A DNA stretch of 42,809 nt, taken from positions 1 to 42,809 of the forward strand of contig JAHJPG010000036.1 in NCBI GenBank assembly GCA_018819925.1. Direction: 5' to 3'. Positions within the stretch are counted from its first letter, which is position 1. The number at the start of each line of letters is the position of its first letter. The notes beneath the pieces are model-generated. The model was not told the DNA's origin. It saw nothing but the letters and a program-made list of their open reading frames with translations, and made no database searches. Shown here piece by piece: positions 6,097 to 42,809 of this stretch. Position numbers and translations under genes: made by a program. Source of the stretch: Pseudomonadota bacterium. Its GTDB lineage: Bacteria > Desulfobacterota > Desulfarculia > Desulfarculales > Desulfarculaceae.

Positions 6097-6113
6097 CCCC
6101 TCTCGCTAGCCGT

Positions 6114-7370
6114 TTAACTAAGGCTGGCCTTGCCGGCCCCCCGGCCCCACACCTTGAGCAAATAGTCCTTGTGGTCCTCGAACTGCTGGGCCTGCTCCTC
6201 CACCAGGGCCTCGGCCTCGGTGGAGGTCATGTCCCAGCTCTGGCGCACAAAGCTGGCCACCCGGGCGTAGTACAGCGGAGTGACCAGATCCAACAGCCGC
6301 ATGCGGTGCTGGTCCCAGGCGTGGTAGGTGGCGGCCAGTTCATAGAGTATCTGCACCCAGGCCGAGGTGGGAAGGTTGAAGTTGCCCGCGTCCATGGTGG
6401 AGGCGGTTTCGATGGCCTTGAAGCAATCGCCGCAGAAGATCTCCTTCCACAAGGCGCTGAAGTTCTTGTAGCCGCTCTGGAAGTTCTCGATCATGGCTTC
6501 CAGGTTCACCCGCACCGGCTCGGGCTCGCCCTGCCCTGAGCCGCCGAAGGTCTTCACCGGCTCGGAGCCCTCCACCTTTGTCCACACGCTCTCGTAACGC
6601 TCCATGAGGTTGAACAGGGTCCAGATGACCTGGCGGAACATGGGACCCAGATGAGAGGCCGGGTCCTTGGCGTCGTGCACCTTGAGGCCCAGGTTGGCCT
6701 GGCACACCTTGAATCCCTGGGTGATGGCGCTGGTGGTCATCCAGATGTCGATGCCGAAACGGGCCACCTCGCTCTCCCAGACGTCCTGCTCGGCGTAAAA
6801 CTTGGCCAGGTCCCGGCTTATGGCGAAGTCACCGCCGATGGGCTGGCGCACCCGCTTGCCGTACAGGGCGCGGGTTAGGTTGTAGACGATGTTGTTGGTG
6901 ATGGTGCCGTCGTATTTGTGGCGCAAATACACCGGCGAGACGTACTGGTAGCCTTTGGTCATCACCGGGTCCAGAAGGGCCTTGACCCAGTCGCCGGTGA
7001 TGGAGCGCAGGTCGCTGTCCACCATGGCGCAGGCGGTCACCTTGAGGCGAGCCGCCGCCTCGAACACCGCTCTGAGCGCGCTGCCCTTGCCGGGCAGGCC
7101 GCGGTAGATGCTGACTATCTTCTCCTGCCATGGCTTTATCTCGAATTCCTTGGCCACCTCGCGGGTGTCGTCGGTGGAGCCGCCGTCGGCCACCAGGATC
7201 ACCGCCCGCTTGTCGCCGTAATGGTCGGCCAGGCCGTGGGTGACCATCTGCACCACGTGGGCGATGGTGGTTTCGTTGTTGTAGCAGGGGATGCCCACCA
7301 GTATGTCGGCCTCGGCGATCTCCTCCAGCCGTTTATTGGTGTAGCCTCGCAGGGCGGTGTAGAAGGGCAT
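6114..7370 (-). CDS. GT-A fold glycosyltransferase, mannosylglycerate/glucosylglycerate synthase-like
   Basis: A 418-residue nucleotide-sugar-dependent glycosyltransferase without membrane segments. The N-terminus has a GT-A fold: VGIPCYNNETTI near 26-37, VADGGSTDDT near 62-71, LPGKGSALR near 92-100 and the metal-binding-type acid motif MVDSDLRSI near 116-124. The later QPIGGDFAISRDLAKF and GIDIWMTTSAI segments resemble the QPLGGE and WGID blocks of mannosylglycerate synthase (GT78) and GpgS-like GT81 enzymes. That family link is from memory, so treat the substrate as a suggestion: GDP-mannose or UDP/ADP-glucose, with glycerate or 3-phosphoglycerate as acceptor. The C-terminal 130 residues are helical and unassigned. 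Confidence 0.75.
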   Translation of the reverse strand: MPFYTALRGYTNKRLEEIAEADILVGIPCYNNETTIAHVVQMVTHGLADHYGDKRAVILVADGGSTDDTREVAKEFEIKPWQEKIVSIYRGLPGKGSALRAVFEAAARLKVTACAMVDSDLRSITGDWVKALLDPVMTKGYQYVSPVYLRHKYDGTITNNIVYNLTRALYGKRVRQPIGGDFAISRDLAKFYAEQDVWESEVARFGIDIWMTTSAITQGFKVCQANLGLKVHDAKDPASHLGPMFRQVIWTLFNLMERYESVWTKVEGSEPVKTFGGSGQGEPEPVRVNLEAMIENFQSGYKNFSALWKEIFCGDCFKAIETASTMDAGNFNLPTSAWVQILYELAATYHAWDQHRMRLLDLVTPLYYARVASFVRQSWDMTSTEAEALVEEQAQQFEDHKDYLLKVWGRGAGKASLS

Positions 7371-13544: not shown

Positions 13545-14561
13545 ATGGACGCCTCCAGCCAGCAATGGTACCTAGCCCTGGGCGGCCAGCCGGCCGGACC
13601 CTATGACCTTAAAAAGCTGCGCGCCCTGGCCAATGAAGGCCGCTTGGGCCCGGACACCCTGGTCTATGGCCAGGGTTTCACCGAATGGACCCCCCTGAAG
13701 GCGGTGGGCGAGTTGGCCGGGTTGCTGGCCTCCCATGCCGCGCCGCCGCCCCCGCTGCCTCAAGGCCGGGCCCTGGCCGACGAGATCGACTACGTCATAG
13801 AGGGCTCGGAGATGCAGTACGTGGAGATCGAGCTGGACCCGGGGGAAAGCGCGGTGGCCGAGGCCGGGGCCATGCTCTACATGAACCAGGGCATCACCAT
13901 GGAAACCATCTTTGGCGACGGCCGACGGGCCCAAACCGGCGGCGGCATCCTGGGTTCCCTGGTGGGGGCGGGCAAGCGCCTGCTCACCGGCGAGAGCCTG
14001 TTCATGACCGTGTTCACCCACAGCGGCCCCACGGGCAAGGCCCGGGTGGCCTTTGCCGCCCCCTACCCCGGCAAGATACTGCCCATGCACCTGGGCGAGC
14101 TGGGCGGGGAGCTTATCTGCCAAAAAGACGCCTTCCTCTGCGCCGCCCGGGGGGTGGCCCTGGAAATAACCTTCCAAAAGAAGATCGGGGTGGGGCTCTT
14201 CGGCGGCGAGGGATTCATCATGCAGCGCCTGGTGGGCGACGGCCTGGCCTTTGTGCATGCCGGGGGCACGGTGGTGGAGATGGACCTGGAACCGGGGCAG
14301 CGCATCCGGGTGGACACCGGCTGCCTGGTGGCCCTGAACCCCTCGGTGAGCTACGACGTGCAGATGGCAGGAGGCATCAAGACCGCCCTTTTCGGCGGCG
14401 AGGGCTTGTTCTTGGCCAACCTCACCGGGCCGGGCCGGGTGTGGCTGCAAAGCCTGCCCTTCAGCCGCCTGGCCGGGCGTATGTACGCCGCCGCGCCCCA
14501 GGGTGGGGGCAAGCAGCGGGGCGAAGGCAGCCTGTTGGGCGGCTTTTTGCGGGATGATTAG
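13545..14561 (+). CDS. AIM24/TIGR00266-family protein with N-terminal GYF_2 domain
   Basis: From ATG 13545 (GGAG at 13534-13537) the product has 338 residues; a TTG at 13515 is a weaker alternative. Residues 5-60 form a GYF_2 domain ([20 protein letters not shown] ... [13 protein letters not shown]). From about 80 on comes the AIM24 (DUF124) beta-sandwich: [63 protein letters not shown]. The family is widespread and poorly understood; the human and yeast homologue acts in mitochondrial membrane organisation. GYF_2 domains are thought to mediate protein contacts. No signal peptide is visible. It is divergent from fdhA. Confidence 0.85.
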
Positions 14562-14566
14562 GCGTC

Positions 14567-14827
14567 CGGCTTCGCCAGTCAGACTGGTGGCATTTGGCTG
14601 GTGAAAAGGAATTGTTGGGTTTCGGGCTACGCCCTCTACACCAACCTACGCGACAGCTCAGAATTTACAGCGAAGTAAGCGTATTTAGATCCTGCGGCAC
14701 AGCCACGCGGCACAGCCGGCCGCCGGCAGACAAGGCGTCTGGCCAAGCGAGGGACGCAGGCGTAGTAGACCTACGCCGAGGACCGAGTGCGGCCAGCAAC
14801 GCAGTATGCCGGTGACTGGCGAAGCCG
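14567..14827. repeat. About 260-bp non-coding element with 14-bp terminal inverted repeats
   Basis: CGGCTTCGCCAGTC at 14567-14580 is exactly the reverse complement of GACTGGCGAAGCCG at 14814-14827. Inside lies GGCGTAG-tagac-CTACGCC (14759-14777) and a GTTGGGTTTCGGG...CACCAACCTACG stretch of the kind seen in dispersed intergenic repeats. There is no credible ORF. It fills almost the whole gap between the AIM24 gene and the convergent prenyltransferase. Only one copy is in the window, so its repetitive nature is an inference. Confidence 0.5.
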
Positions 14828-14853
14828 CCGCCCCCAGCAGCGAAGCCGCCACG

Positions 14854-15759
14854 CTACCTCAGCCAGGCCCCGATCAGCAGCCCCAGCACCATGAGCAAGC
14901 CGGTGCTCAGGTGGGTGGCGATGGTCAGGGCCTGGGCCGGCACCAGGGCGGCGGGGTCATCGTAGCTGCGCCAGGCGATGGCCACCGCCCGCCCCGCCGG
15001 GATCAGGGCGCCCAGGGCCAGGTAGAGCCAAGGGGTCAGCCCCCAGCCATGCACCAGCCATGCCAGGGAGGGGAAAGGGGCCAGCATCAGCCCCGCGTAG
15101 ATTATCCGCGAGGAGGCCAGGCCCAGGCGCACCACCAGGTTGTTCTTGGCCGCGGCCGCGTCGGCGGCCATGTCGGGGAACTGGTTTATCCACAGCACCG
15201 CCGTTATCTGCCAAGCCTGGGGCAGACCCAGCCACCAAGCCACGGCCCAAAACTGCCCGCCCAGGACATAGGCCGCGCCCCAGGTGAGCAGGGGGCCGAA
15301 GAGAATGAAGATGGCCAACTCGCCCAGTCCCAAGGACATCAGGGCCAGGGGGCCGGCGGAGTAGAGCCAGCCGCCGGCCAGGCCCGCCGCGCCCACGGCC
15401 AAGGCCCAGGGCCGGCCCGAGGCGGCCACCATGCCGCCGCACGCCCCGGCCGCCATGAAAAAGGCCACCGCCAAGGCCCCCACCGTCCGGCGGCTCATGC
15501 GGCCATCCTGGATCACCCGGCCGCCGCCGGAAAAAATGGTGGCGTGGCGGTTCAGGGGGTCGCTGCCCACCGCGTCGTAGAAATCGTTGATCAGGTTGGC
15601 CCCGCTTTGCAGGCAACCCACCCCGGCCAAGGTGAGCAGCAACAACTCCCAAGGCATGGGGGCGCGTCCCCAATGCCAGGCGGCGACGACCAGAACCGGC
15701 ACCAGGGAGCCTGTGAGGAACGGCAGGCGCATGGCCTGGACCAACAGCGGCGTGGGCAT
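14854..15759 (-). CDS. UbiA-family prenyltransferase (MenA-like)
   Basis: An integral membrane prenyltransferase of 301 residues with about eight or nine hydrophobic helices. The first Mg-diphosphate motif is NLINDFYDAVGSD near residues 56-68. The second is the NQFPDMAADAAAAKNNLVVR region near 190-209. Such enzymes attach a polyprenyl tail to 1,4-dihydroxy-2-naphthoate (MenA), 4-hydroxybenzoate or related aromatic cores. MenA is the best guess because of the AKNNLVVRLG segment and because anaerobes of this type use menaquinone, but no men genes flank it. ATG 15759 has GGGAGAG upstream. Confidence 0.8.
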   Translation of the reverse strand: MPTPLLVQAMRLPFLTGSLVPVLVVAAWHWGRAPMPWELLLLTLAGVGCLQSGANLINDFYDAVGSDPLNRHATIFSGGGRVIQDGRMSRRTVGALAVAFFMAAGACGGMVAASGRPWALAVGAAGLAGGWLYSAGPLALMSLGLGELAIFILFGPLLTWGAAYVLGGQFWAVAWWLGLPQAWQITAVLWINQFPDMAADAAAAKNNLVVRLGLASSRIIYAGLMLAPFPSLAWLVHGWGLTPWLYLALGALIPAGRAVAIAWRSYDDPAALVPAQALTIATHLSTGLLMVLGLLIGAWLR

Positions 15760-30763: not shown

Positions 30764-31330
30764 TCAAACCTCGGCGGCAGCCTGGGCGCCCAGGGCCAGC
30801 AGCTCGCGGTTGGCACGGGCCCTGGCCGGGGGCTGGCCCTGGCATATGGCCCGCTCCAACTCCCCGGGCCTCACCGGCAGGGCTCCGGCGGCGGCCGCCG
30901 CGCCCAAGAGCACCACGTTGGCTCCCTTGGCGGTGCCGGCCTGGCCGGCCAGGGCCGTGGCCGGCACGGTGAGCACCCGGGCCCCGAAGGAGGCCAGGGC
31001 CTTTTTGGCCTTGGGCGATAGGAAATCCAGGTCCGGGGCGTTGACCACCAGCCAGCCCTTGGGGAGCAGGTAGCCCAGGTTGCGCACCGCCTCGCCGGGG
31101 TCCAGGGCCAAGACCAGATCGGCCTGGCCCTGGCTCACCAGAGGACCGCTGAAGGGCCCAGCCTTGAGGTGGCTGACCACCGCTCCTCCCCGTTGGGCCA
31201 TGCCATGCACCTCGCTGATGAGGATGGCCCCCGCCTTATGCTCCACCGCCGAAGCCAGGGCCCGGCTGACGAACAGCACTCCCTGGCCGCCCACTCCGGC
31301 CACCACCGCCTGCCACTTGAGCCGGCTCAT
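30764..31330 (-). CDS. iorB: Indolepyruvate ferredoxin oxidoreductase, beta subunit
   Basis: The gamma-type small subunit of the 2-oxoacid:ferredoxin oxidoreductase, which with IorA oxidatively decarboxylates aryl pyruvates to aryl-acetyl-CoA. The 188 residues show AGVGGQGVLFVSRALASA near 10-27, EVHGMAQRGGAVVSHL near 43-58 and the C-terminal helical part. ATG 31330 overlaps the iorA stop (ATGA), so translation is coupled to iorA; an in-frame upstream extension to 31399 lies inside iorA and is not used. It is the last gene of the iorAB pair. Confidence 0.93.
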   Translation of the reverse strand: MSRLKWQAVVAGVGGQGVLFVSRALASAVEHKAGAILISEVHGMAQRGGAVVSHLKAGPFSGPLVSQGQADLVLALDPGEAVRNLGYLLPKGWLVVNAPDLDFLSPKAKKALASFGARVLTVPATALAGQAGTAKGANVVLLGAAAAAGALPVRPGELERAICQGQPPARARANRELLALGAQAAAEV

Positions 31331-33411
31331 TTTTGCTCCTCCAGCGGGGCGATGGCCCCCTGGGCGCAGACCTCGACGCACAGGCCGCAGTCCACGCACC
31401 AGCCCCGGTCGATGCTGATGTATCCCTGCGCGTCGCGTGCCAGGGCGGGGCAGGCGAACCAGGTGCTACACAGCCCGCAGGCGGTGCAGGCCCCGGCCGG
31501 CTCCAGAGCCATGGTGCCCGTGGGGCACACCGCCGCGCACAGGCGGCAGCCGGTGCACTTGGCCTCATCAACCTTGATCTTGCCCTTGCCGGTGCGCCTC
31601 AGGGCCCCGGCCGGGCAGATGGCCACGCAGCGGCCGCAGTCGGCGCAGGGGTTTTCCTTGGGCCTAAAGCTGGTCTTCGCCGGCGCGGCCTGGCCCTTGA
31701 CCTCCACCTTGCGGGGGCTGGGCACCGCGTCGGTCGGACGCTGGGCGGCGCAGGCGTGGCGGGCGATGATAACCGCCACCGAGCCCTCGGGCCCCTGACA
31801 CCAGCGCCAGGCCTTTTTCAGGGTCTTTTGCAGCCCCCCCATGTCATAGGGGTCCAGCTCGGTGAGCCAGCGCACCCCGCAGCCCTCCACCAGTTTCTTG
31901 AGCTCCACCGCCTGGCCGGGGTGGCCGTCGGCGGTTAGCCCGCTCTCGGGTGTGGGCTGCATCCCGGTCATGGAGGTTGTCTCGTTGTCCAGGATCACCA
32001 ACACGAAGCGGGCCCCGTTGTACACCGCGTTGATAAGGCCGGTGGTCCCAGAGTGAAAGAAGGTGCTGTCGCCGATGGTGGCCACCACCGGGGTGGCATC
32101 CTTGCCTTGGTTCAGGCCGCGGCTCAGGGCGGAGGCGAAGGTCACCGCCGCGCCCATGTCGTGGCAGGTGTCCACCGCTCCCTGGTTCATGCCCAGGGTG
32201 TAGCAGCCGATGTCGCTGGGATATATCCCGGTGGGCAGGGCCCGGCGCAGGCTGAAAAACACCGCCCGATGGGAGCAGCCGGGGCAGAGGTTGGGGCGGC
32301 GCATGGGCGGCTGGTCGGGCACGGTCAAAACCTTGCCCCTGGGGCGGGGCGCCTTCAGCTTGGCCTGGCCCAGGGCCCTCTCCAGCACCTCGCCCAACAC
32401 TTCGGGGGTCAGTTCCCCGGCGCTGGGCACGTGGCCCGAGGCCCGACCCCACAGCCTGTCCCGGTTGGGAGCCAAAAGCTCCAGCACCGGCTCGGTCTCT
32501 TCCAGAACCAATACATTGCGGCAGCCCGCGATCAGTTCGCTCACCGGACCGATGGGCAGGGGATAGGGCGCGGCGGTCTGCAAAAAGGGCACCTTGCCCT
32601 CGGCCACCGGCAAGCCCAGCTCGTCCAAGACGTCCCGGGCCAAGGCCGCAGCCATCCCGGAGGCCAGGATGCCCAGGGGGGCCCGGGGCCGGAGAGGGGC
32701 GTGCCACTGGTTCAGGCTCTTGCTCTTGCTCACGTAATCCTGAATCTTGGTCAGCTTGGCATTGAGGGCGTGGTGCAGGGCCAGGCGCATCTTGGGGATG
32801 GCCGCCCAGCGGAAGGGGTCACGCCCAAACACCGGGATTCGCTCCAACTCCTTGGGTTCGCGCAGGTTCAGGTTTTGCCGGCCGTGACACACCCTGAGGG
32901 TGGGCCGGATCATCACCGGAATCTGGAAGCGCTCGCTCAGCGCGAAAGCCGGGCCCACCAGGTCCCGGGCCATGGCCGGGCTGTCGGGGTCAAACACCGG
33001 CAGCTTGGCAAAGTGGGCCAGCAGGCGGCTGTCCTGCTCGGTCTGGGAGGAGTGGGGGCCGGGGTCGTCGGCGCTGATGATTATCATGCCCCCGATCACC
33101 CCGATGTAGGCCGCGCTCATCACCGGGTCCAGGGCCACGTTGAGCCCCACCATCTTCATGGCCACGGCGGAGCGCTGGCCGGTGTAGGCCGCAGCCAGGG
33201 CCACCTCCACCGCCACCTTCTCGTTCACCGACCACTCGCAGTAGGGCGGGTGCTGCATCTCGGCCCCGTAGTGGACCACCGAGGGCAATATCTCGCTGCT
33301 GGGGGTGCCGGGATAGGCGGTCATCACCGCCACCCCGTTCTCCACCAGACCCCGTCCCAGGGCCTGGTTGCCCATCAATATCTCTTTGCGCACTTTGGCG
33401 TTGGAACTCAC
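31327..33411 (-). CDS. iorA: Indolepyruvate ferredoxin oxidoreductase, alpha subunit, with four 4Fe-4S motifs
   Basis: The catalytic TPP subunit, 694 residues from GTG 33411, which has AGGA at the right spacing. An ATG at 33438 lacks a ribosome site. The N-terminal pyrimidine domain has AVMTAYPGTPSSEIL near 28-42 and ADDPGPHSSQTEQDSR. The TPP domain has CPGCSHRAVF, GDSTFFHSGTTGLINAVYNG and LDNETTSMTG. The C-terminus has four cysteine motifs: C589/592/595/599, C619/622/625/629, C642/645/648/654 and C672/675/678/682. The last two are the canonical IorA ferredoxin domain; the first two appear to be an added dicluster module of about 45 residues. Confidence 0.93.
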   Translation of the reverse strand: MSSNAKVRKEILMGNQALGRGLVENGVAVMTAYPGTPSSEILPSVVHYGAEMQHPPYCEWSVNEKVAVEVALAAAYTGQRSAVAMKMVGLNVALDPVMSAAYIGVIGGMIIISADDPGPHSSQTEQDSRLLAHFAKLPVFDPDSPAMARDLVGPAFALSERFQIPVMIRPTLRVCHGRQNLNLREPKELERIPVFGRDPFRWAAIPKMRLALHHALNAKLTKIQDYVSKSKSLNQWHAPLRPRAPLGILASGMAAALARDVLDELGLPVAEGKVPFLQTAAPYPLPIGPVSELIAGCRNVLVLEETEPVLELLAPNRDRLWGRASGHVPSAGELTPEVLGEVLERALGQAKLKAPRPRGKVLTVPDQPPMRRPNLCPGCSHRAVFFSLRRALPTGIYPSDIGCYTLGMNQGAVDTCHDMGAAVTFASALSRGLNQGKDATPVVATIGDSTFFHSGTTGLINAVYNGARFVLVILDNETTSMTGMQPTPESGLTADGHPGQAVELKKLVEGCGVRWLTELDPYDMGGLQKTLKKAWRWCQGPEGSVAVIIARHACAAQRPTDAVPSPRKVEVKGQAAPAKTSFRPKENPCADCGRCVAICPAGALRRTGKGKIKVDEAKCTGCRLCAAVCPTGTMALEPAGACTACGLCSTWFACPALARDAQGYISIDRGWCVDCGLCVEVCAQGAIAPLEEQK

Positions 33412-33496
33412 GCGTATCCTCGCTGAGTGGTTTTGCATGCAAGGCCCATAAAATAACCCGGCGCGGGGCCGGGCGCAAGGACATGGGCCGGGGGGT

Positions 33497-35668
33497 TTAT
33501 TTGCTGTCATACACCGCCGAGCCGTCCCAGTCCGGGGGCGGCGGGTCGGCGGCAAAGGCGGCGGTGCGCCGGGCCAGGACCTGGGCCGCCTGGTCCGAGG
33601 GCCGCTCCCCGGCCAGGGCGGCGAAGGCCTGGGCCGCCCCTGGCCAGTCGCGCTCCCGGTACAGGGCGAAAGCCGCCTCCCAGCGATCGCAATATTCCAG
33701 GGCCGCAGGGTCCGGGGCCAGCTCCGGAAGGTCGCCCAGCAGGCCTACCAGCTCGTAGATCAAGGTGGGCTCGCTGGTGCCCTTGGGCTCCACCTGGTCC
33801 ACGGTGCGCCACACGAAGCCCTCCCCGGCCGCCCGGCGCACCGCCTGGCTGGCCAGGATTTGGGTGCCGTAGACCTTGTTTAGCCCCTCCAGGCGCGAGG
33901 CCAGGTTCACCGCCGCGCCCAGGGCGGTGTAGTCCATGCGCTGGGCCGCGCCCACGTTGCCCACGATGACCTCCCCGGTGTGCAGGCCCAGGCGGGTGTG
34001 CATGATGGGCTGGCCCGCCTCCTGCCAAGCCTGGTCCATCTGTTGGCTGTGCCGCCGGCACAAAAGGGCCGCCCGGCAGGCGTGGGCCGCGTGCTCGGCA
34101 TCGGCCAGGGGCGCGTTCCAAAAGGCCATGATGGCGTCGCCGATGAATTTGTCGATGGTGCCCTGGTTGGCCTGTATTTCCTCGCACAGGCCGGAGAAGT
34201 AGGCCGAGGCCTTGAGCATGAGCGCCTCGGGGTCCATGTGCTCGGCCATGTCGGTGAAGTTCGCCACGTCGGAGAACATCAGGGTGAGCACCCGCTTCTC
34301 GCCGCCCAGGCCCTGCTCCTTGCCCGAGAACACCAATTGGCGCACCAGATCCACCGGCACATAGCGGGAAAAAGTCCTGAGGGTGGTCTTCATGGTGGCC
34401 ACGCTCTGGGTGAGGCGGTGGATCTCGCTGATGTGGGAGTCGATGGCCGGGGTGGGCTCCAGTTGCAGGTTGCGCATCGCCTTGGTTTCGGCCACCACCT
34501 GGCCCAGGGGCCGGGAGATGCGCCGGGCGATGATCACCACCAGGGGGACGGACGCAAGCATGATGAGCAGAGAGATAAGAAGGCTGCGCAGGTTGCTCTG
34601 GATGATGGGGCCCATGAGCTCGTCCAGGGGGGTGAGCACGGCCACGTAGTTCCACTGGCCCTGAAAGTCCTTTATCCGCTCCACCCCGGCGGCGTACTCG
34701 CGGCCCTTCACCTCGAAGTTGAGCAACTGCTCCTTGGCCTGGGGATCGAAAAGGCGGCTCAGTTCACCCAACAGGGGATTGCCCAGGTTGTCCAGAGTGG
34801 CCAAGCCCAAGACCTCTTTGCCGTCTTGGCGGGCGACCTTCACGATCTGTTTGGCCTGGGGGTAGGCCACCAGCCTCCGCTGGCTGTCGAAAACCACGGT
34901 AAGGCCCGAGTCGCCTACCTTGTGGGAAGCCGTGAACTCGCACAGGGTGCGGGCGGAGACGTCCACCCCCAGCACTCCTCCCTTCGGGGCGGGAGCGAAG
35001 CGGTAGGCCAGGGTCATTCCCGGCTCCCGCAGGCTGTCGAAGACGTAGTAGTTGGTGCCGTATACCCGTCCCGCCTCCTGGGCCAGCTTGTACCAGGGCC
35101 GCCCCCGGGGGTCGTAGGCGGGGGCGCTCAGGCTCCAGGCTGAGAGCTGCCGCTTTTGCTCGTCCAAAAAGCGCCAGGTCACGATGCGGGGGCCGCCGGG
35201 GTTCTGAATTATGCTGCGCACCCCGTACATGGCCCCCGGCGGGGCCTTTATATCCTCGCGCGCCTTTGGGGCCAGTTGGCCCAGGCGCACCACCTGGAAG
35301 AAATGGCCGTCGTCATAGCCCAGGTAAATGCCGAAAAATTGGGGGTGGCTGGCCAGGGCCTTGATGAACAGGCCCTCGAGGGAGTGGCCTTCATCCACGG
35401 GCGGGTGTTTTATGCCCGGATGTTCGGCCGAAAGGACCACAAAGGAGCGGGCCTTGGAGAAGAATTCGGTCAACTGGCCGGTGAACTGGCCCACGATGTC
35501 GTGCATCAGCCGCCGAGAAGCCATCATGGCCCGGTCACTGCTGGTTCGGTAGTTGTACCAGGTGATGCTCCCGGCCACCGCGATCATGAGCAGCAGGAAT
35601 ATGGTGAGGATGTTCAGGGACAGAGGGTAGCGCCGGCGGCGCTTGGAGGGAGCATCTTGCTGGACCAT
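33497..35668 (-). CDS. Cache-HAMP class III adenylate/guanylate cyclase
   Basis: A 723-residue membrane receptor cyclase. The first membrane helix (about 16-36) and the second (about 360-385) flank a large periplasmic dCache-type sensor with YDPRGRPWYKLAQEAGRVYG near 165-184. A HAMP linker follows (RRISRPLGQVVAETKAMRN). The catalytic domain from about 445 has LTLMFSDVANFTDMAE with the first metal Asp, GDAIMAFWNAP with the second, and GLHTGEVIVGNVG and YTALGAAVNLASRLE. It probably makes cAMP; the substrate-selecting residues were not resolved. ATG 35668 is preferred to GTG 35674 because of GAGAGG spacing. It lies between iorA and livK in the same direction. Confidence 0.9.
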   Translation of the reverse strand: MVQQDAPSKRRRRYPLSLNILTIFLLLMIAVAGSITWYNYRTSSDRAMMASRRLMHDIVGQFTGQLTEFFSKARSFVVLSAEHPGIKHPPVDEGHSLEGLFIKALASHPQFFGIYLGYDDGHFFQVVRLGQLAPKAREDIKAPPGAMYGVRSIIQNPGGPRIVTWRFLDEQKRQLSAWSLSAPAYDPRGRPWYKLAQEAGRVYGTNYYVFDSLREPGMTLAYRFAPAPKGGVLGVDVSARTLCEFTASHKVGDSGLTVVFDSQRRLVAYPQAKQIVKVARQDGKEVLGLATLDNLGNPLLGELSRLFDPQAKEQLLNFEVKGREYAAGVERIKDFQGQWNYVAVLTPLDELMGPIIQSNLRSLLISLLIMLASVPLVVIIARRISRPLGQVVAETKAMRNLQLEPTPAIDSHISEIHRLTQSVATMKTTLRTFSRYVPVDLVRQLVFSGKEQGLGGEKRVLTLMFSDVANFTDMAEHMDPEALMLKASAYFSGLCEEIQANQGTIDKFIGDAIMAFWNAPLADAEHAAHACRAALLCRRHSQQMDQAWQEAGQPIMHTRLGLHTGEVIVGNVGAAQRMDYTALGAAVNLASRLEGLNKVYGTQILASQAVRRAAGEGFVWRTVDQVEPKGTSEPTLIYELVGLLGDLPELAPDPAALEYCDRWEAAFALYRERDWPGAAQAFAALAGERPSDQAAQVLARRTAAFAADPPPPDWDGSAVYDSK

Positions 35669-35741
35669 GGACACCTCTCAGTAACTGCCATGGACCCAAG
35701 ATTAACCCGGCGAACGAGCGGCGGGCAAGCTCTGTAAGGAG

Positions 35742-35778
35742 CCAGGGCGGCGCGGGGAGGCTCCCCGCGCCGCCCTGG
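35742..35778 (-). terminator. GC-rich hairpin ending the liv-paaK operon
   Basis: A perfect 17-bp stem (35742-35758 with 35762-35778) and a minimal loop lie 7 nt beyond the livK stop. No T tract follows on the minus strand, so it may protect the mRNA end as well as terminate. Confidence 0.6.
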
Positions 35779-35784
35779 GGTTAG

Positions 35785-36981
35785 TTACTTGGCGGGAACG
35801 AACTTGCCGTCCTTGACCTGGATCATGACCATGGAGTCCTCCCCCAGGCCGTTGTGGTCCTTGGGGCTCAGGTTGTAGACCCCGCTGACCCCAACGTAGC
35901 CCTTGGTGTTCTCCAGGGCGGCGCGCACCTTGTCCGGGTCGGTGCCGGCCTTCTGCATGGCCCCGGCCAACAGGTACACCGCGTCCCAGGCATAGCCGGA
36001 GTGGGTGTTGATGGGGTATTGCTTGTTGTACTTGTAGACGTCGTTGTACAGGCGCACGAACTCGGCGATCACCTTTTTCTGGGGATCGCTGTCCGGCAGG
36101 CTCTCATAGACCATGAGCTTGGTGGCGGGCATCAGATCGCCCTCGGCCGCCGCCCCGGCCAGCTGCACGTACTTGGGCCCGGGCACGCCGTGGCACTGCA
36201 CCAGGGGAGCCTTGAGCCCCAAGGCGTGGTGGTTCTTGGAGACGATGGCCGCGGCCGGGCCGATGGTCCAGCAGACCACGGCCTGGGGCTTGGCGGCGGC
36301 CAGCTTGGTTAGCTGGCTCTTCATGTCCACGTCCTTGGGGTTGAACTGCTCGGCCCCCACCAGGGTGACCCCGTACTGGGGGGCCAACTTGGCGAACCAG
36401 CGGGCCCCGTCGCGGCCAAAGCCGTCGCTGGCGCTGATGAGTCCCACCTTGGTGAGGTTGTGGGCCTTAAGGTAGCCCAGCACCTTCTTGACCGCGATGG
36501 CCGAGCGCTGGGGCGACTTGAACACGTACTTGGCCGTGCCGAAGTCCATTTTGCCGATCTTGCCTTCCATGATCACCGGGTCGCCGCCCACGGTCATCAC
36601 GGTGGGAATCTTGGCGGTTTCCACCTGCTTCTTCACGGCCATGCCCGTGCCGGTGCGGGTGGGGCCCACCACCGCAGCCACCTTGTCCACGTTCACGAAC
36701 TTCTTGAAGGCCATCACCGCCTTGGTGGGCTCGCCCTCGGTGTCGGCCAAAATCAGCTCGATGGGCCGGCCCTGGATGCCGCCCTCCTTGTTGATCTTGT
36801 CAACCACCATCAGGGCCACCAGCTTGGTGGGCGCGCCGATGGAGGCCGCCGGACCGCTCAGGGCGAAAAAGGCCCCGATCTTCACCGGCTCTTTTTTGTC
36901 GGCGGCCAGCGCCGGCACGGCCAGGGCCAGGGCCAAAAGCAGGCACAGGGCCAACCCGGCCAAAACCTTAAACCTTTTCAT
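35785..36981 (-). CDS. livK: LivK-like periplasmic substrate-binding protein
   Basis: The binding protein of a branched-chain amino acid-type (HAAT) ABC importer. The 398-residue precursor has a signal peptide (FKVLAGLALCLLLALALAVPALA). The mature type I binding fold starts VKIGAFFALSGPAASIGAP, then VAAVVGPTRTGTGMAVKK near 98-115 and VGLISASDGFGRDGARWF. In this operon with paaK the ligand may be an aromatic acid or amino acid rather than leucine; this is inference. ATG 36981 has GGGAGG upstream, and a 9-bp hairpin (37003-37026) precedes it. It is the last gene of livHMGF-paaK-livK. Confidence 0.9.
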   Translation of the reverse strand: MKRFKVLAGLALCLLLALALAVPALAADKKEPVKIGAFFALSGPAASIGAPTKLVALMVVDKINKEGGIQGRPIELILADTEGEPTKAVMAFKKFVNVDKVAAVVGPTRTGTGMAVKKQVETAKIPTVMTVGGDPVIMEGKIGKMDFGTAKYVFKSPQRSAIAVKKVLGYLKAHNLTKVGLISASDGFGRDGARWFAKLAPQYGVTLVGAEQFNPKDVDMKSQLTKLAAAKPQAVVCWTIGPAAAIVSKNHHALGLKAPLVQCHGVPGPKYVQLAGAAAEGDLMPATKLMVYESLPDSDPQKKVIAEFVRLYNDVYKYNKQYPINTHSGYAWDAVYLLAGAMQKAGTDPDKVRAALENTKGYVGVSGVYNLSPKDHNGLGEDSMVMIQVKDGKFVPAK

Positions 36982-37002
36982 CGCTCATCCTCCCTTTTGC
37001 GG

Positions 37003-37026
37003 CCGGCCTCCCTCCCCGGAGGCCGG
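37003..37026 (-). promoter_or_regulatory. Intercistronic hairpin between paaK and livK
   Basis: CCGGCCTCC (37003-37011) pairs with GGAGGCCGG (37018-37026) across a six-base loop, 21 nt upstream of livK. Such hairpins often shield the mRNA of an abundant binding protein; that role is inferred. Confidence 0.45.
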
Positions 37027-37035
37027 GCCCCTTAT

Positions 37036-38322
37036 TTATACCTCTTCGCGGCGGTCGAAAATCCGCTGCGACTTGCGTTCGCTGCGCGGCAGGCTGCCAT
37101 AATCCATAACCTGGATCTCGGCGCTGACCAGGATGTGGGCCTTGACCCCCTTGGAGATGGACGCGGCCACCGCCTGATCGTCGCCGGCGGAGCCCTCGGG
37201 AGCCCGCTCCACCATTATGACCATGTAGTCCCGGCCGTCCTCGCCCCGCCGCAGATGCACCTGGTACTCCGAGCCCACCCCGGGGCTCTGGCTCAACACG
37301 TGGTCGATCTGGCCGGGGTAGATGTTCACCGCCCGGAACTTGATCATGTCGTCGCTGCGCCCCATGATGCGGCCATGCCGGGGAAGGATGTTGCCGCAGG
37401 GGCAGGGCTCGGGCAGGAGGCGGCACAGGTCGCGAGTGCGGTAGCGGATAAGCGGGGCGGCCTCTTTGCACAGGGTGGTCACCACCATCTCGCCAATTTC
37501 GCCCGGAGCCACCGGCTCCAGGCTCACCGGGTCCAGAATCTCCAGAATGTAGTAGTCGGCCCAGTAGTGGATGCCCTGATGCGCCCGGCACTCGATGCCG
37601 GTGCCCGGTCCGTAAAGTTCGGTGAGGCCCGGTATGTCGAAAAGCTCGGCCCCCAAGGCCTGGCTGATGCGCTGGCGCATGGCCTCGCTGGTGCGCTCGC
37701 TGCCGTAGATGAGCTTGTTGATCTTCACCTGATCGCCCAAGCCCCGGCGCTTGATCTCCTCGGCCATCAACAAGGCCATGGAGGAGGTGCTGCACATCAC
37801 CGTGGACTGGAAGTCCACCAGGAACTGCCACTGCATCTCCAGGTTGCCCGGCCCCACGGGCAGGGCCAGGGCCCCGAAGCGCTCGCAACCGGCCTGGAAG
37901 CCCACCCCGGCGGTCCACACCCCATAGCCCACCATTATCTGCACCCGGTCGGCCCGGGTTAGCCCGGCCATCTCGTAGCAGCGGGCGAACATGTGGGCCC
38001 AATCGTCCAGGTCCTTCTGGGTGTAGGCCAACACCTTGCGCTTGCCGGTGGTGCCGCTGGAGGCGTGGACCCGAACCACCTCTTCGATGGGCACCGAGAG
38101 CAGGGGAAAGGGATAGCCGGCGCGCAAGTCGTCGGTCATGGTGAAGGGCAGGCCCCTCAGGTCGTCCAGGCTCTTTATGTCGCCGGGGGTCACCCCCGCC
38201 TCTTGGAGGCGCCGGGCGTAAAAGGGACTGCCCGCCTGGGCGTGGGCCACGGTCCATCGCAGGCCCTTTAGTTGATGAGCCGCCAACTCCTCGGCGCTGT
38301 TGAAATTAGGCATGAAGGTCAT
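37036..38322 (-). CDS. paaK: Phenylacetate-CoA ligase
   Basis: This enzyme converts phenylacetate (or a related aryl acetate), ATP and CoA to the CoA thioester. The 428 residues match PaaK. Seen are the AMP-binding P-loop HASSGTTGKRKV near 92-103, YGSERTSEAMRQRI near 226-239, GLTELYGPGTGIECRAHQG near 253-271, LIRYRTRDLCRLLPEPCPCG and the C-terminal GRSDDMIKFRAVNIYPGQID hinge. Its ATG overlaps the livF stop by 4 nt (ATGA), so it is translationally coupled to the transporter. Other aryl or medium-chain acids cannot be excluded as substrates. Confidence 0.93.
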   Translation of the reverse strand: MTFMPNFNSAEELAAHQLKGLRWTVAHAQAGSPFYARRLQEAGVTPGDIKSLDDLRGLPFTMTDDLRAGYPFPLLSVPIEEVVRVHASSGTTGKRKVLAYTQKDLDDWAHMFARCYEMAGLTRADRVQIMVGYGVWTAGVGFQAGCERFGALALPVGPGNLEMQWQFLVDFQSTVMCSTSSMALLMAEEIKRRGLGDQVKINKLIYGSERTSEAMRQRISQALGAELFDIPGLTELYGPGTGIECRAHQGIHYWADYYILEILDPVSLEPVAPGEIGEMVVTTLCKEAAPLIRYRTRDLCRLLPEPCPCGNILPRHGRIMGRSDDMIKFRAVNIYPGQIDHVLSQSPGVGSEYQVHLRRGEDGRDYMVIMVERAPEGSAGDDQAVAASISKGVKAHILVSAEIQVMDYGSLPRSERKSQRIFDRREEV

Positions 38323-39080
38323 GAGGATTCCTCGGGTTTTTTATCTCCAGGGCCGGCGGAGGCCCGGCGGGGCCCCAAGAAGGCCTCCCGCAGCAACTCG
38401 TCGGCCAGAATTTCCTGGGGCGAGCCGCTTTGGCGGATGCGCCCGCCGGTTATTATATAACCCCGCTGGCTCACGCTGAGGGCGCCCAGGGCGTTTTGCT
38501 CCACCAAAAGCACCGAACATCCCTGGGCGGGCAGGTCGCGCACCACCCCTAAAATCTCGGCGGCCATCTGGGGGGCCAGGCCCAGGCTGGGCTCGTCCAA
38601 CAGCAGCAGGCGGGGCCGGGCCATGAGCCCCCGGGCCATGGCCAGCATCTGCTGTTCGCCGCCGCTCAGGGTGCCCGCCGGCTGCTCCAGGCGCTGGGCC
38701 AACACCGGAAACATGGCCAGGGCCCGCTCCATATCCCGGGCCACGGCCTTGCCCTGGCGCTGGCGCAGGCGCACGTAGGAGCCCAACTCCAGATTTTCCC
38801 GCACGCTCAAGGGGCCGAAGAGTTGGCGCCCCTCGGGCACCTGCACCACCCCGGCCTCCACGATGGCCGAAGGGGCCATGCCGTTGATCTGGCGGTTCTC
38901 AAAGGTCACCCGGCCGCCCTTGGGCTTGAGCAGGCCGGAGATCACCCCCAACATGGTGGTCTTGCCCGCCCCGTTCATGCCCAACAGGCTCACCACCTCG
39001 CCGGGGTTCACCTTGAGGCTCACCTCGCGCAGGGCCGGCTGGCGGCCGTAGGCGAAGGATATGGACTCCACCCTAAGCAA
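38319..39080 (-). CDS. livF: LivF-type ABC transporter ATP-binding protein
   Basis: One of two ATPases energising the HAAT importer. In 253 residues: Walker A LLGMNGAGKTTMLG near 32-45, a Q-loop in VVQVPEGRQLFGPL, the signature LSGGEQQMLAMARGLM near 138-153, Walker B RLLLLDEPSLGL near 157-168 and the switch His region in VLLVEQNALGAL. The EGRQLF segment marks LivF rather than LivG. The start overlaps the livG end by 8 nt, and the stop overlaps the paaK start. Confidence 0.94.
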   Translation of the reverse strand: MLRVESISFAYGRQPALREVSLKVNPGEVVSLLGMNGAGKTTMLGVISGLLKPKGGRVTFENRQINGMAPSAIVEAGVVQVPEGRQLFGPLSVRENLELGSYVRLRQRQGKAVARDMERALAMFPVLAQRLEQPAGTLSGGEQQMLAMARGLMARPRLLLLDEPSLGLAPQMAAEILGVVRDLPAQGCSVLLVEQNALGALSVSQRGYIITGGRIRQSGSPQEILADELLREAFLGPRRASAGPGDKKPEESS

Positions 39081-39855
39081 GCAGCCCGAACTCCTCTCCC
39101 CCGCCCAGGTAGATCCGAATCACCTCGGGGTCTTGCTGAATCTGGGCCGGAGTGCCCCGGGCGATGAGCCGCCCGCCACTGAGCACCGCCACCTGGTCGG
39201 AGATGCGCATCACCAGCCCCATGTCGTGCTCCACCAACACCACCCCGATGCCCTGCTCCTTGATCTTCACGATGAGCCGGCCCAACTCGTGGGTCTCCGC
39301 CGCGTTGAGCCCGGCCACCGGCTCGTCCAGGAGCATGAGGCGGGGCCGCCCGGCCAGGGCCCGGGCCAACTCCAGGCGCTTCTGGTCGCCATAGGCCAAC
39401 TCCTCGGCGGGCTGATGGGCCACCTTGTCCAGGCCGAAGAAGGCAAGCACCTCCTCGGCCCGTGCCCTAATGGCCGCCTCCTGGCGGCGCAGCAGGGGCA
39501 GGCGCAGCATGGCCGCGGCAAATCCGCCCCGGCTGGCGGCATGCATGCCCACCATGACGTTTTCCAGCACGTTCATCAGGCCGAAGACCTGCAAGTTCTG
39601 AAAAGTGCGGGTAAGGCCCAGGCGGGCCAGCTTGTACCCGGCCATGCCCAGCACCGCCCGGCCGTCGAAGCCAACCTGGCCGGAGTTGGGGGCCACCACC
39701 CCGGACACGCAGTTGATGGCCGTGGTCTTGCCCGCCCCGTTGGGGCCGATGAGAGCGGTGATGGCCCCGGCCGGGGCCTCCAGGTCCAACGAGTCCAGGG
39801 CCTGCAAGCCCCCGAAGCGCACCGAAAGGCCCTTTATGGTCAGCAGGGCGGCCAC
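39073..39855 (-). CDS. livG: LivG-type ABC transporter ATP-binding protein
   Basis: The second ATPase of the importer, 260 residues from GTG 39855, which has GGAGGG at the right distance. An upstream extension of the frame overlaps livM and is spurious. Seen are Walker A LIGPNGAGKTTAIN near 36-49, TRTFQNLQVFGLMNVLENV typical of LivG, signature LAYGDQKRLELARAL, Walker B RLMLLDEPVAGLNAAET and VEHDMGLVM with the switch His. The usual Ser-Gly-Gly signature is replaced by AYGDQ, which is normal in LivG. It is 2 nt from livM and overlaps livF. Confidence 0.94.
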   Translation of the reverse strand: MAALLTIKGLSVRFGGLQALDSLDLEAPAGAITALIGPNGAGKTTAINCVSGVVAPNSGQVGFDGRAVLGMAGYKLARLGLTRTFQNLQVFGLMNVLENVMVGMHAASRGGFAAAMLRLPLLRRQEAAIRARAEEVLAFFGLDKVAHQPAEELAYGDQKRLELARALAGRPRLMLLDEPVAGLNAAETHELGRLIVKIKEQGIGVVLVEHDMGLVMRISDQVAVLSGGRLIARGTPAQIQQDPEVIRIYLGGGEEFGLLA

Positions 39856-39857
39856 GG

Positions 39858-40814
39858 TTAGAAGGCCCTCCCTCCGGGTCGCACCCGCTTGCCCTCCAGC
39901 CAGCCCACCAGGCCCTGGGGCAAAAAAATCAACAGCAACAATAAGATGCCGCCGAAGAAGATGTCCTTGTACTCCTCCACCACGGCCAACAGCTGAGGCA
40001 GGGGGGTTAGCAGGGCCGCGCCGAACAGGCCGCCCCACAGCGAGCCCATGCCCCCCACTATGCACATGGTCACCAGTTCCACCGATTTGAATATATCAAA
40101 GGTCTTGGGGGTGATGATGCCGTAGTAGTGGGCGTAGAGGCTGCCGGCCACCGAGGCGTAGACCGCGCTGACCACGAAAACCTTGACCTTGTAGGACTCG
40201 ATGGGCACCCCCGAGGCGGCGGCGGCCAGGGGGGCTTCGTGCAGGGCCTTGAGCCCCCGGCCCACCCGGGAGTGCACCAGATTGCGGGCCAGGAGAAGCC
40301 CCAGGAGCACCGCGCCCCAGGCCAGCCAGTAAAAGGACAAGTCCGTGGCTATGGGCGCGCCGAAAAAGGTGAGCGGCGGGATGCCGGTGTAGCCGCTGGG
40401 CCCGCCGGTGATGTCGTCCAACTGGAGCATCAACACGCTGACGATGAGGTTGAAGCCCAGGGTGGCCATGACCAGATAGTTGCCCTCCAGCCTCAGGGTG
40501 GGCATGCCGATGACAAGCGCCACCAGGGCCACCACCGCCGCGGCCAGCACCAGGGCGGTCCAGGGCTCCCAGCCGTGGGTGCCGGTGAGGATGCCTGAGA
40601 TGTAAGCCCCCAGGCCGAAGAAGGCGGCGTGGCCCAGGCTGATCTGCCCGGCGAAGCCGATGAGCAGATTGAGCCCGGTTACCACCAGCACGTTGAGGGC
40701 CACCACGTTGAGAACGTTGAGGTAATAGGGGTTGGTCACCACCAGGGGCAAGGCGGCCAACACAGCGGCCAGGGCGGCCAGGGCCAGGAAAAAACGTTTG
40801 CCCTGGGTGGTCAT
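39858..40814 (-). CDS. livM: LivM-type ABC transporter permease
   Basis: A membrane permease of 318 residues from ATG 40814, whose ATGA overlaps the livH stop. About nine to ten hydrophobic helices are visible. Family segments are NVLVVTGLNLLIGFAGQISLGHAAFFGLGAY near 43-73, then VGRGLKALHEAPLAAAASGV, the conserved cytoplasmic loop contacting the ATPase, and VGGMGSLWGGLFGAALL. The frame runs open to 41846 but that stretch is the livH shadow. It pairs with LivH to form the channel. Confidence 0.93.
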   Translation of the reverse strand: MTTQGKRFFLALAALAAVLAALPLVVTNPYYLNVLNVVALNVLVVTGLNLLIGFAGQISLGHAAFFGLGAYISGILTGTHGWEPWTALVLAAAVVALVALVIGMPTLRLEGNYLVMATLGFNLIVSVLMLQLDDITGGPSGYTGIPPLTFFGAPIATDLSFYWLAWGAVLLGLLLARNLVHSRVGRGLKALHEAPLAAAASGVPIESYKVKVFVVSAVYASVAGSLYAHYYGIITPKTFDIFKSVELVTMCIVGGMGSLWGGLFGAALLTPLPQLLAVVEEYKDIFFGGILLLLLIFLPQGLVGWLEGKRVRPGGRAF

Positions 40815-41695
40815 ACCCGGTCCCCGCTTTTGACCCCCAGCAGTCCGCCGGGCCGCAAGAACAACACCAAAAGCAGCACCACGAAGGCCACCGCGTCCTT
40901 GTACACGCTGGAGATGAGCCCGGCGGCCAGGCTCTCGATGAGCCCCAGGGCCAGGCCGCCCACCACCGCGCCCAAAAAGCTGCCGTAGCCCCCCAGCACT
41001 GCGGCCGCGAATCCCTTGAGCCCCATGATGACCCCCACCTCGTAGGACAGGCTGGTGATGGGGGTGATGAGCACCCCTGCCAGGGCCCCCAAGGCCCCGG
41101 CCAGGGCGAAGGAATACATGGTCATGCGGTGGGCGTCGATGCCCATGAGGGCGGCGGCGGAGAGGTTGATGGCCGTGGCCCGCATGGCCTTGCCGGTGAG
41201 GGTGCGGTTGAAAAACCACACCAGGGCCACGATGGCCACCAGGGTGATGCCCAGCACCCAGAGGTTTTGGGGGGTGAAGGTGGCCCCCAGCAGATGCATG
41301 GGAGTCTCCGGGCTCAGGGGAGGCAGGGCCAGGGCCTGCTTGCCCCACAGGTGCTTGAACACCCCTCGCATGAGGATGGAGGCCGCGATGGTGATGAAGA
41401 TGAGCACCATCACCTGGCGGCTGCGGGCCGGGCGGATGGCCAGGCGCTCCAACAAGGCCCCCACCAGCGCCACCGAGGCCACGGCCAGGGGAAAGGCCAA
41501 GACCATGGGCAGGCCCGCCCCGCCCAGGAAGGAGTAGGCCATGAGTCCGCCCAGGGAGAGGAAATCGCCCTGGGCGAAGTTGACCACCCTGGTGGCGTTG
41601 TAGATCAGGCAAAAGCCCAGGGCCACCAGGGCGTAGACCGCCCCGGTGGTCAACCCGCTGACAACGTATTGCGCTAGCTGGTCCCCGAAGCTCAC
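40811..41695 (-). CDS. livH: LivH-type ABC transporter permease
   Basis: The first gene of the operon and partner of LivM. GTG 41695, with GAAGG six bases upstream, gives 294 residues beginning MSFGDQLAQYVVSGLTTGAV. Starts further upstream (GTG 41701, ATG 41740) lack a ribosome site. Family features are the early NATRVVNFAQGDFLSLGGL segment near 35-53, the ATPase-contacting loop GKAMRATAINLSAAALMGID and GFAAAVLGGYGSFLGAVVGG. About eight membrane helices are present. A good sigma-70 promoter with a possible operator lies upstream. Confidence 0.92.
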   Translation of the reverse strand: MSFGDQLAQYVVSGLTTGAVYALVALGFCLIYNATRVVNFAQGDFLSLGGLMAYSFLGGAGLPMVLAFPLAVASVALVGALLERLAIRPARSRQVMVLIFITIAASILMRGVFKHLWGKQALALPPLSPETPMHLLGATFTPQNLWVLGITLVAIVALVWFFNRTLTGKAMRATAINLSAAALMGIDAHRMTMYSFALAGALGALAGVLITPITSLSYEVGVIMGLKGFAAAVLGGYGSFLGAVVGGLALGLIESLAAGLISSVYKDAVAFVVLLLVLFLRPGGLLGVKSGDRV

Positions 41696-41747
41696 CGCCA
41701 CACCTTCGCCCGGCCCGGGAACATCCCGAGCCCGAGGCATTGCATAC

Positions 41748-41792
41748 CGTATACGATTTATTGGGTATATCGGGAAAAAAGGGGGTTGTCAA
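41748..41792 (-). promoter_or_regulatory. Sigma-70 promoter of livHMGF-paaK-livK with overlapping palindrome
   Basis: Minus strand: TTGACA (41792-41787), a 17-bp spacer and TATACC (41769-41764). Just past the -10, near the expected start, is the perfect palindrome CGTATACG (41748-41755). ATACC (41744-41748) and GGTAT (41764-41768) form wider arms. The location over the start site suits a repressor. The promoter is predicted by consensus; the operator is inferred. Confidence 0.6.
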
Positions 41793-41898
41793 TGACCGGC
41801 CAGGCCAAAGGCGGCCTTGACAGGACCCGCCCCAACTATCCATCATGTAATACGAAACAACATGCCGGGGTTAACCGGCCAGGATGGAGAAAAGATTA

Positions 41899-42477
41899 AT
41901 GAGCGCGCAAAAGGTACAAACGGGCGGGGGGTTGTTGGCGGACAGCCTGGCTGAATTGCAAAAACATCGCGGCAGCCTGATGGCCGCAGGGATCATCTCC
42001 CTGATTCTGGGCAGCTTCGCCATCCTGGCGCCCCTGGCCGCCACCGTGGCCGTGGTGTGGATCATCGGCGCGGTCATTTTGGTGCAGGGCATTATCCAAC
42101 TGGTGCACTGCTTCAAGTCCGCCCAGTGGAGCGCCTTTGCCTGGAACCTCTTGTGGGCGGTGGTCTATATAATCGCCGGCGGGCTCATCCTGGCCCGGCC
42201 CTTGCTGGGGGCCATCACCCTCACTCTGCTGCTGGCCGCCTTTTTCATCGTGGAAGGCGTGGTGAAGCTGGGCTTGGCCATGAAGATCAAGCCCGCCCCC
42301 CGCTGGGGCTGGGTGCTGTTCTCGGGCATCATGGGCCTGGTGTTGGGGGTCATAATCTTCGCGGGCTGGCCGGGAGACTCCCTGGCCATCATGGGCCTGC
42401 TGCTGGGCATCGACCTGATCTTCGGGGGCTGGTCCATGATCATGCTGGCCTCCGGGGCCAAGGCGGCCAAGGCGTAG
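41899..42477 (+). CDS. hdeD: HdeD-family (DUF308) membrane protein
   Basis: A small integral membrane protein of the HdeD family, members of which contribute to acid resistance in E. coli. ATG 41899 follows GGAG at 41886-41889 with nine bases between; an ATG at 41884 is less well placed. The 192 residues contain six hydrophobic segments in three pairs, for example MAAGIISLILGSFAILAPLA and WVLFSGIMGLVLGVIIFAGW. The repeated turn-and-helix pattern is typical of DUF308. The gene ends 3 nt before a tRNA-like sequence. It is divergent from livH. Confidence 0.87.
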   Translation: MSAQKVQTGGGLLADSLAELQKHRGSLMAAGIISLILGSFAILAPLAATVAVVWIIGAVILVQGIIQLVHCFKSAQWSAFAWNLLWAVVYIIAGGLILARPLLGAITLTLLLAAFFIVEGVVKLGLAMKIKPAPRWGWVLFSGIMGLVLGVIIFAGWPGDSLAIMGLLLGIDLIFGGWSMIMLASGAKAAKA

Positions 42478-42480
42478 GCC

Positions 42481-42508
42481 CCGGGTTCGAACCCCGTTGT
42501 GACCGCCA
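42481..42508 (+). other. tRNA 3'-end remnant (T arm, acceptor strand and CCA)
   Basis: The 28 bases contain a T-loop (GGGTTCGAACCC), then GTTGTGACC, a G in discriminator position and an encoded CCA. The matching 5' acceptor GGTCACA and the D and anticodon arms are absent; upstream is hdeD coding sequence. It is directly followed by a terminator. This is what remains at one end of an element integrated in a tRNA gene, or a decayed tRNA. Confidence 0.55.
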
Positions 42509-42517
42509 AATAATATC

Positions 42518-42553
42518 GGAGGGTTCAGTCATCTGGCTGAACCCTCCTTTTTT
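42518..42553 (+). terminator. Rho-independent terminator after hdeD / tRNA remnant
   Basis: A perfect 11-bp stem GGAGGGTTCAG (42518-42528) and CTGAACCCTCC (42537-42547) with an eight-base loop is followed by a T run. It serves hdeD now and may once have ended a tRNA transcript. Confidence 0.88.
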
Positions 42554-42793
42554 ATAATTTAGATGTAGACGACTTTCTCCCAAAAGCATCTCAAGGCTAC
42601 CCAAGGTGCTATCTAAGTTACCAATTGCCAAAATTTTCTTGGTTTCGGATTGACAGGCTACGAACGCCGGTTAACTCCAACCTGTCGCCGCGTCCCCCCA
42701 TGTTGAAACAAATTAGTGAAGCGCCTCCTTTGTCCGCGGACGCGGGGGCTTCTATCATCGGTTCCATGATTGTTTTCAAGCAAAGGAACCGAT
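42554..42793. other. AT-richer intergenic region before the last gene
   Basis: No gene. The first part, to about 42660, is clearly less GC-rich than the rest of the window. TTGACA at 42650-42655 lacks a good -10. GGTTCC/GGAACC (42760-42765, 42785-42790) is a short inverted repeat covering the putative ribosome site of the next gene. Confidence 0.35.
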
Positions 42794-42809
42794 ATGTCTC
42801 AATCCAGCC
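42794..42809 (+). CDS. Possible start of the next gene (5' end only)
   Basis: ATG 42794 follows AAGGA (42783-42787) with good spacing and begins Met-Ser-Gln-Ser-Ser before the window ends. It is too short to identify. Confidence 0.35.

Follow-up and report, generated by a model that had tools for sequence, protein, structure and literature searches.

A probable orphan 3' fragment of tRNA-Glu(CTC), with its terminator, behind hdeD in a Desulfarculaceae genome

The window analysed in this work (i.e. the whole stretch of 42,809 nucleotides, which is the entire contig C27 of a draft assembly of 4.03 Mb in 145 contigs) carries, directly behind an hdeD-like gene, the last part of a tRNA-Glu(CTC) gene together with the terminator that follows it. 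The reading which we favour, with a probability of roughly 0.7, is that this feature is a decaying orphan fragment of the tRNA gene whose terminator now serves hdeD. The arrangement is a small lineage-specific rearrangement, and not the edge of a resident island. The parts of the locus are as follows.

41884 to 42477, plus strand: hdeD-like gene (DUF308), an open reading frame of 197 aa matching PF03729 (E 6e-22)
42482 to 42508, plus strand: 3' fragment of tRNA-Glu(CTC), nucleotides 50-76 of the tRNA, 25/27 identical
42509 to 42553, plus strand: spacer and intrinsic terminator, homologous to the tRNA-Glu(CTC) terminator, 41/45 identical
42554 to 42694, no strand assigned: remainder of the intergenic DNA, which aligns weakly with the native gap between hdeD and the MSQ-type gene of relatives
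42695 to 42809, plus strand: conserved upstream region and first codons of an MSQ-type gene (ATG at 42795), recognised from the loci of relatives

The fragment begins 4 bp behind the stop codon of hdeD and comprises the greater part of the T arm, the 3' strand of the acceptor stem and GCCA (27 bases). A reading of this DNA made from the sequence alone (hereafter the sequence-only reading) had recognised here a tRNA 3' remnant followed by a terminator, and this identification is borne out, as positions 42482-42551 match the tRNA-Glu(CTC) gene of contig C123 in the same genome, terminator included, with 94% identity over 70 bp (E 2e-24); the next-closest match in this genome, tRNA-Glu(TTC) on contig C8, reaches 80%. 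Judged by this homology, 42482-42508 is the displaced 3' end of a tRNA-Glu(CTC) gene. The remnant had been taken to span 42481-42508, one base too many, as the C at 42481 cannot pair with T65 and lies outside the homology, which begins at 42482, corresponding to nucleotide 50 of the tRNA. The tRNA part is without the 5' half of a tRNA, and one of its two substitutions (viz. G68 to T), both of which lie in the acceptor strand, would disrupt a pair in the acceptor stem of tRNA-Glu(CTC); it can therefore not function as a tRNA. No whole tRNA was found in the window by ARAGORN, an Rfam scan of the window at gathering scores gave no match, and a permissive Rfam scan of 42300-42809 returned only four weak and irrelevant matches. 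Two other explanations for the resemblance were rejected: chance is ruled out by the E value of 2e-24 and by the expectation of zero matches to a 25-mer of the fragment in shuffled windows, and a dispersed family of tRNA-derived repeats is ruled out by the genome-wide matches, which, besides the window, are limited to C123, C8 and two right-flank copies on contig C82.

The bases behind the fragment contain a GC-rich hairpin with a T-run directly behind it (42518-42553), in which the 13-bp stem occupies 42518-42547 and TTTTTT occupies 42548-42553. In its GC-rich stem, its six Ts and its orientation in the direction of hdeD, it resembles an intrinsic (Rho-independent) terminator, but unlike an ordinary terminator of this kind it is derived from the transcription unit of tRNA-Glu. 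The differences from the tRNA-Glu(CTC) locus amount to 2 of the 27 tRNA bases and 4 of the 45 bases that follow, and with rates this similar, the divergence does not show that selection acts on the terminator alone.

The sequence-only reading had further expected an intact tRNA with the acceptor GGTCACA and an integrase adjoining it. A tRNA with this acceptor was not found in the present assembly, where the best match is 25/28; the nearest one, tRNA-Glu(CTC), does adjoin an integrase coding sequence. The exact 14-base end, CGTTGTGACCGCCA, is present in 4 of the 63 genomes of the class, the present genome included, and an intact source tRNA with this acceptor elsewhere in the class was rejected, the three foreign CGTTGTGACCGCCA sites holding no tRNA. 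The attachment sequence was also sought in two scans of viral contigs, which gave no match.

The layout of a tRNA 3' fragment followed by a terminator fits that of an attR site, and the sequence-only reading had placed the inserted DNA to the left of it, ending at hdeD. However, the DNA on this side is core DNA, which is collinear through hdeD in 6 of the 7 relatives from the genus. The HdeD product scores 78.2 bits against PF03729, for which the gathering cut-off is 25; its gene is matched in all seven of the other genus genomes, and by name it is found among relatives in the Desulfarculaceae and in other deltaproteobacterial drafts. The left-flank matches extend over window positions 32345-42471 in G004 (10.1 kb, 88%), 30764-42462 in G005 (11.7 kb, 85%) and 39708-42462 in G007 (86%, on a contig of 5.6 kb), and in G001, G006 and G002 the order of the left flank is kept at 78-83%, with hdeD alone at 70% in G002. 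In the remaining genome, G003, hdeD (68%) lies on a 9.7-kb contig with just one other match, which falls in a remote portion of the window. Among the genes of the left flank are those of a branched-chain amino acid transport cluster and of sensor proteins, and the integrase profile PF00589 has no match on C27 or on C82, the contig which continues the right flank, its matches being confined to contigs C93, C68, C61, C114 and C76. With the right flank native as well, as seen through C82, it is extremely unlikely that a resident island lies on the left with the fragment as its attR. An identical linkage of hdeD and the remnant in all relatives, by which the sequence-only reading would have been refuted, is not observed: the linkage is seen in 0 of 7, a tRNA piece behind hdeD being found in none of these genomes.

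On the right side, contig C82, when reversed, opens with a 95% copy of the last 282 bases of the window (42528-42809) and then continues the order seen in G004, viz. the MSQ-type gene, a SUMF1/PEGA region and a CLC channel gene. From this 282-bp overlap and the synteny, we infer that C27 and C82 join here and that the right flank is the native neighbour of hdeD, with the qualification that the junction between hdeD and the fragment is known from one draft assembly and that the overlap could represent strain variants or a tandem duplicate. The MSQ-type gene stands behind hdeD in G004 and G007, and in G005 only its upstream region is conserved there. This upstream region is confined to the hdeD locus and occurs in 4 of the 8 genus genomes, the downstream module being absent in G001, G002, G003 and G006. 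The ends of the two contigs also bear on whether the feature is an assembly artefact at a contig end, as C27 stops within a repeat, 256 bp to the right of the terminator, and the end of C82 likewise lies inside this terminator. However, both flanks are neighbours in the relatives, the fragment has substitutions of its own that are seen nowhere else in the assembly, and a chance misjoin would take two joins within 80 bp; an artefact is therefore very unlikely.

If, on the other hand, the fragment marked the left boundary of a variable, element-borne insert on the right, then this insert would occupy the interval from hdeD to the CLC gene. Within the genus this interval is of variable length, its extremes being tens of bases in G006 and more than 9 kb in the present genome, and the right side is AT-richer, as had been noted from the sequence alone (GC 45% at 42554-42694 versus 63% in hdeD). 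However, three relatives that lack the tRNA piece have this module beginning at the corresponding position, and, as indicated above, C82 has no PF00589 match, which together make an insert of this kind very unlikely. The interval (C82 about 41260-50571, mostly L011, and L059 10122-14075) holds an array of SUMF1/PEGA proteins, and on C82 extra copies are present inside it; for the MSQ-type and neighbouring proteins encoded there, no Pfam or PADLOC family was matched. A conserved stretch of about 94 bp upstream of MSQ-type genes, in which an imperfect inverted repeat can be discerned by eye, has three copies in the present genome (42695-42809, and C82 44558-44651 and 50290-50571), all at this interval.

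Behind hdeD in G004, G005 and G007 stands a strong native hairpin, after which comes the upstream region that is also present in the window. These native hairpins are the more stable ones (predicted energies of -30.5 to -36.7 kcal/mol), with no more than three Ts adjoining the stem, whereas the imported hairpin, with six Ts, has the energy of the tRNA-Glu terminator (-25.4 kcal/mol). A comparison of these sites suggests that, in all likelihood, a tRNA tail and terminator of 72 bp replaced the hairpin belonging to hdeD in this lineage only, where replacement is judged from the three named relatives, those with the downstream module.

Within the genus, islands have both tRNA-Glu genes as hot spots. 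Behind these genes comes an integrase-like coding sequence and, farther on, a second copy of the tRNA 3' end with a terminator, the reading frames beside the tRNA-Glu genes of the relatives having been called integrases by eye. In G005, a genome in a single contig, such pairs are located at 3473461/3501227 (CTC) and 525927/549329 (TTC). In the present genome, each tRNA-Glu gene precedes the C-terminal remainder of an integrase, truncated at a contig end by one and the same IS3-like transposase sequence (both likewise named by eye), and the cut lies near the same C-terminal motif at L010 1-300 (C123) and at L012 about 5150-6525 (C8). When the island ends of the relatives were intercompared, similarity was found mainly next to the tRNA and within the tandem copies of G005, where a second integrase-like sequence after the first tRNA fragment (L067 about 14220-15000) apparently reflects tandem islands at tRNA-Glu(CTC). 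At another such end, on C35 of G004 (L071 about 6340-6463), the terminator of a tRNA-Glu(TTC) fragment runs into an inverted copy reaching from the tRNA end to the terminator, forming a long palindrome. The chromosomal gene downstream of the present genome's own tRNA-Glu(CTC) island could not be located through the HdrA-like family, which has at least 25 matches per genome.

Because both tRNA-Glu genes are hot spots of this kind, a carrier element is conceivable for the fragment behind hdeD. If a tRNA-Glu island had integrated at the 3' end of hdeD as a secondary site and was subsequently lost, then the tRNA end and terminator would remain as its scar. The duplicated 3' ends at the hot spots, the integrase coding remains adjoining both tRNA-Glu genes of the present genome, and a 7-base match (TCGAACC) in the native site of G005 are consistent with this course of events. 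However, the window copy starts at nucleotide 50 of the tRNA, whereas the start is at nucleotides 30-45 in all 12 of the other fragments compared (11 partial copies in genomes G001-G007 of the genus plus one in G013, exclusive of the whole tRNAs G003 C569, G006 441833 and G013 122036, of weaker partial matches in more distant genomes and of G005 3148982). Further, the loss of the native hairpin is unexplained by simple excision, and the microhomology is not significant (P about 0.05 for the 7 bases in G005 and 0.22 for 6 bases in G004; none in G007, 0.99). With neither C27 nor C82 showing a match to PF00589, such a scar is tenable but doubtful. Both anticodon-type and T-region-type crossovers are among those described for tRNA-integrated islands in the Islander paper (PMC4383910), and an element with a T-region crossover, from outside the set seen here, may have been the source.

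As far as the description in that paper extends, the locus resembles an Islander-type attR (PMC4383910) in carrying the 3' end of a tRNA gene whose remaining part is missing and in deriving from a tRNA that is used by islands of the genus. The fragment also corresponds to an intact tRNA gene of the same genome, tRNA-Glu(CTC) on C123, to which it is similar (25/27) but not identical, the two lying on separate contigs. However, unlike such a site, no adjoining island was found and there is no match to the integrase profile PF00589 in the interval; the genes on both sides are native neighbours in G004, G005 and G007, and the start at nucleotide 50 falls outside the crossover region of the genus elements. 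The sequence-only reading is upheld in its displaced tRNA 3' end and in the integrase expected next to the parent gene, itself a hot spot, but not in placing inserted DNA to the left, ending at hdeD. The locus is also like the partial tRNA genes arising from mobile elements or rearrangement, in the form in which these are treated in PMC9897764, as here too a non-functional partial tRNA lies in an otherwise ordinary locus; it differs from these in bringing along the tRNA terminator and in standing at the position of a protein gene's native hairpin.

Under the favoured interpretation of an orphan fragment, the last 27 bases of tRNA-Glu(CTC) and the terminator would have come to lie, in the lineage of this species, between hdeD and the gene that ordinarily follows it, most likely by short ectopic copying or illegitimate recombination from a tRNA-Glu locus or from an island end. 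Transcripts of hdeD would now end at the imported terminator, and the tRNA part, being presumably functionless, would be drifting. A less likely route is the integration at hdeD of an element specific for tRNA-Glu, followed by its deletion. Copying or recombination of this kind needs no extra assumptions about an element; integration at a secondary site and subsequent loss is possible because tRNA-Glu elements are frequent in the genus. A broader and unlikely proposal is that the hairpins behind protein genes occasionally serve as secondary sites for elements targeting tRNA-Glu, so that island traffic would bring tRNA terminators to such genes as a by-product ("terminator capture").

The wider relevance of this finding is limited. 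A tRNA 3' fragment with a terminator which looks like an island end, but lies between two native neighbours, gives a false positive where islands are inferred solely from tRNA fragments. Further, if the predicted terminator works, then the locus would illustrate, on a small scale, how the terminator of a tRNA gene can be acquired by a protein gene.
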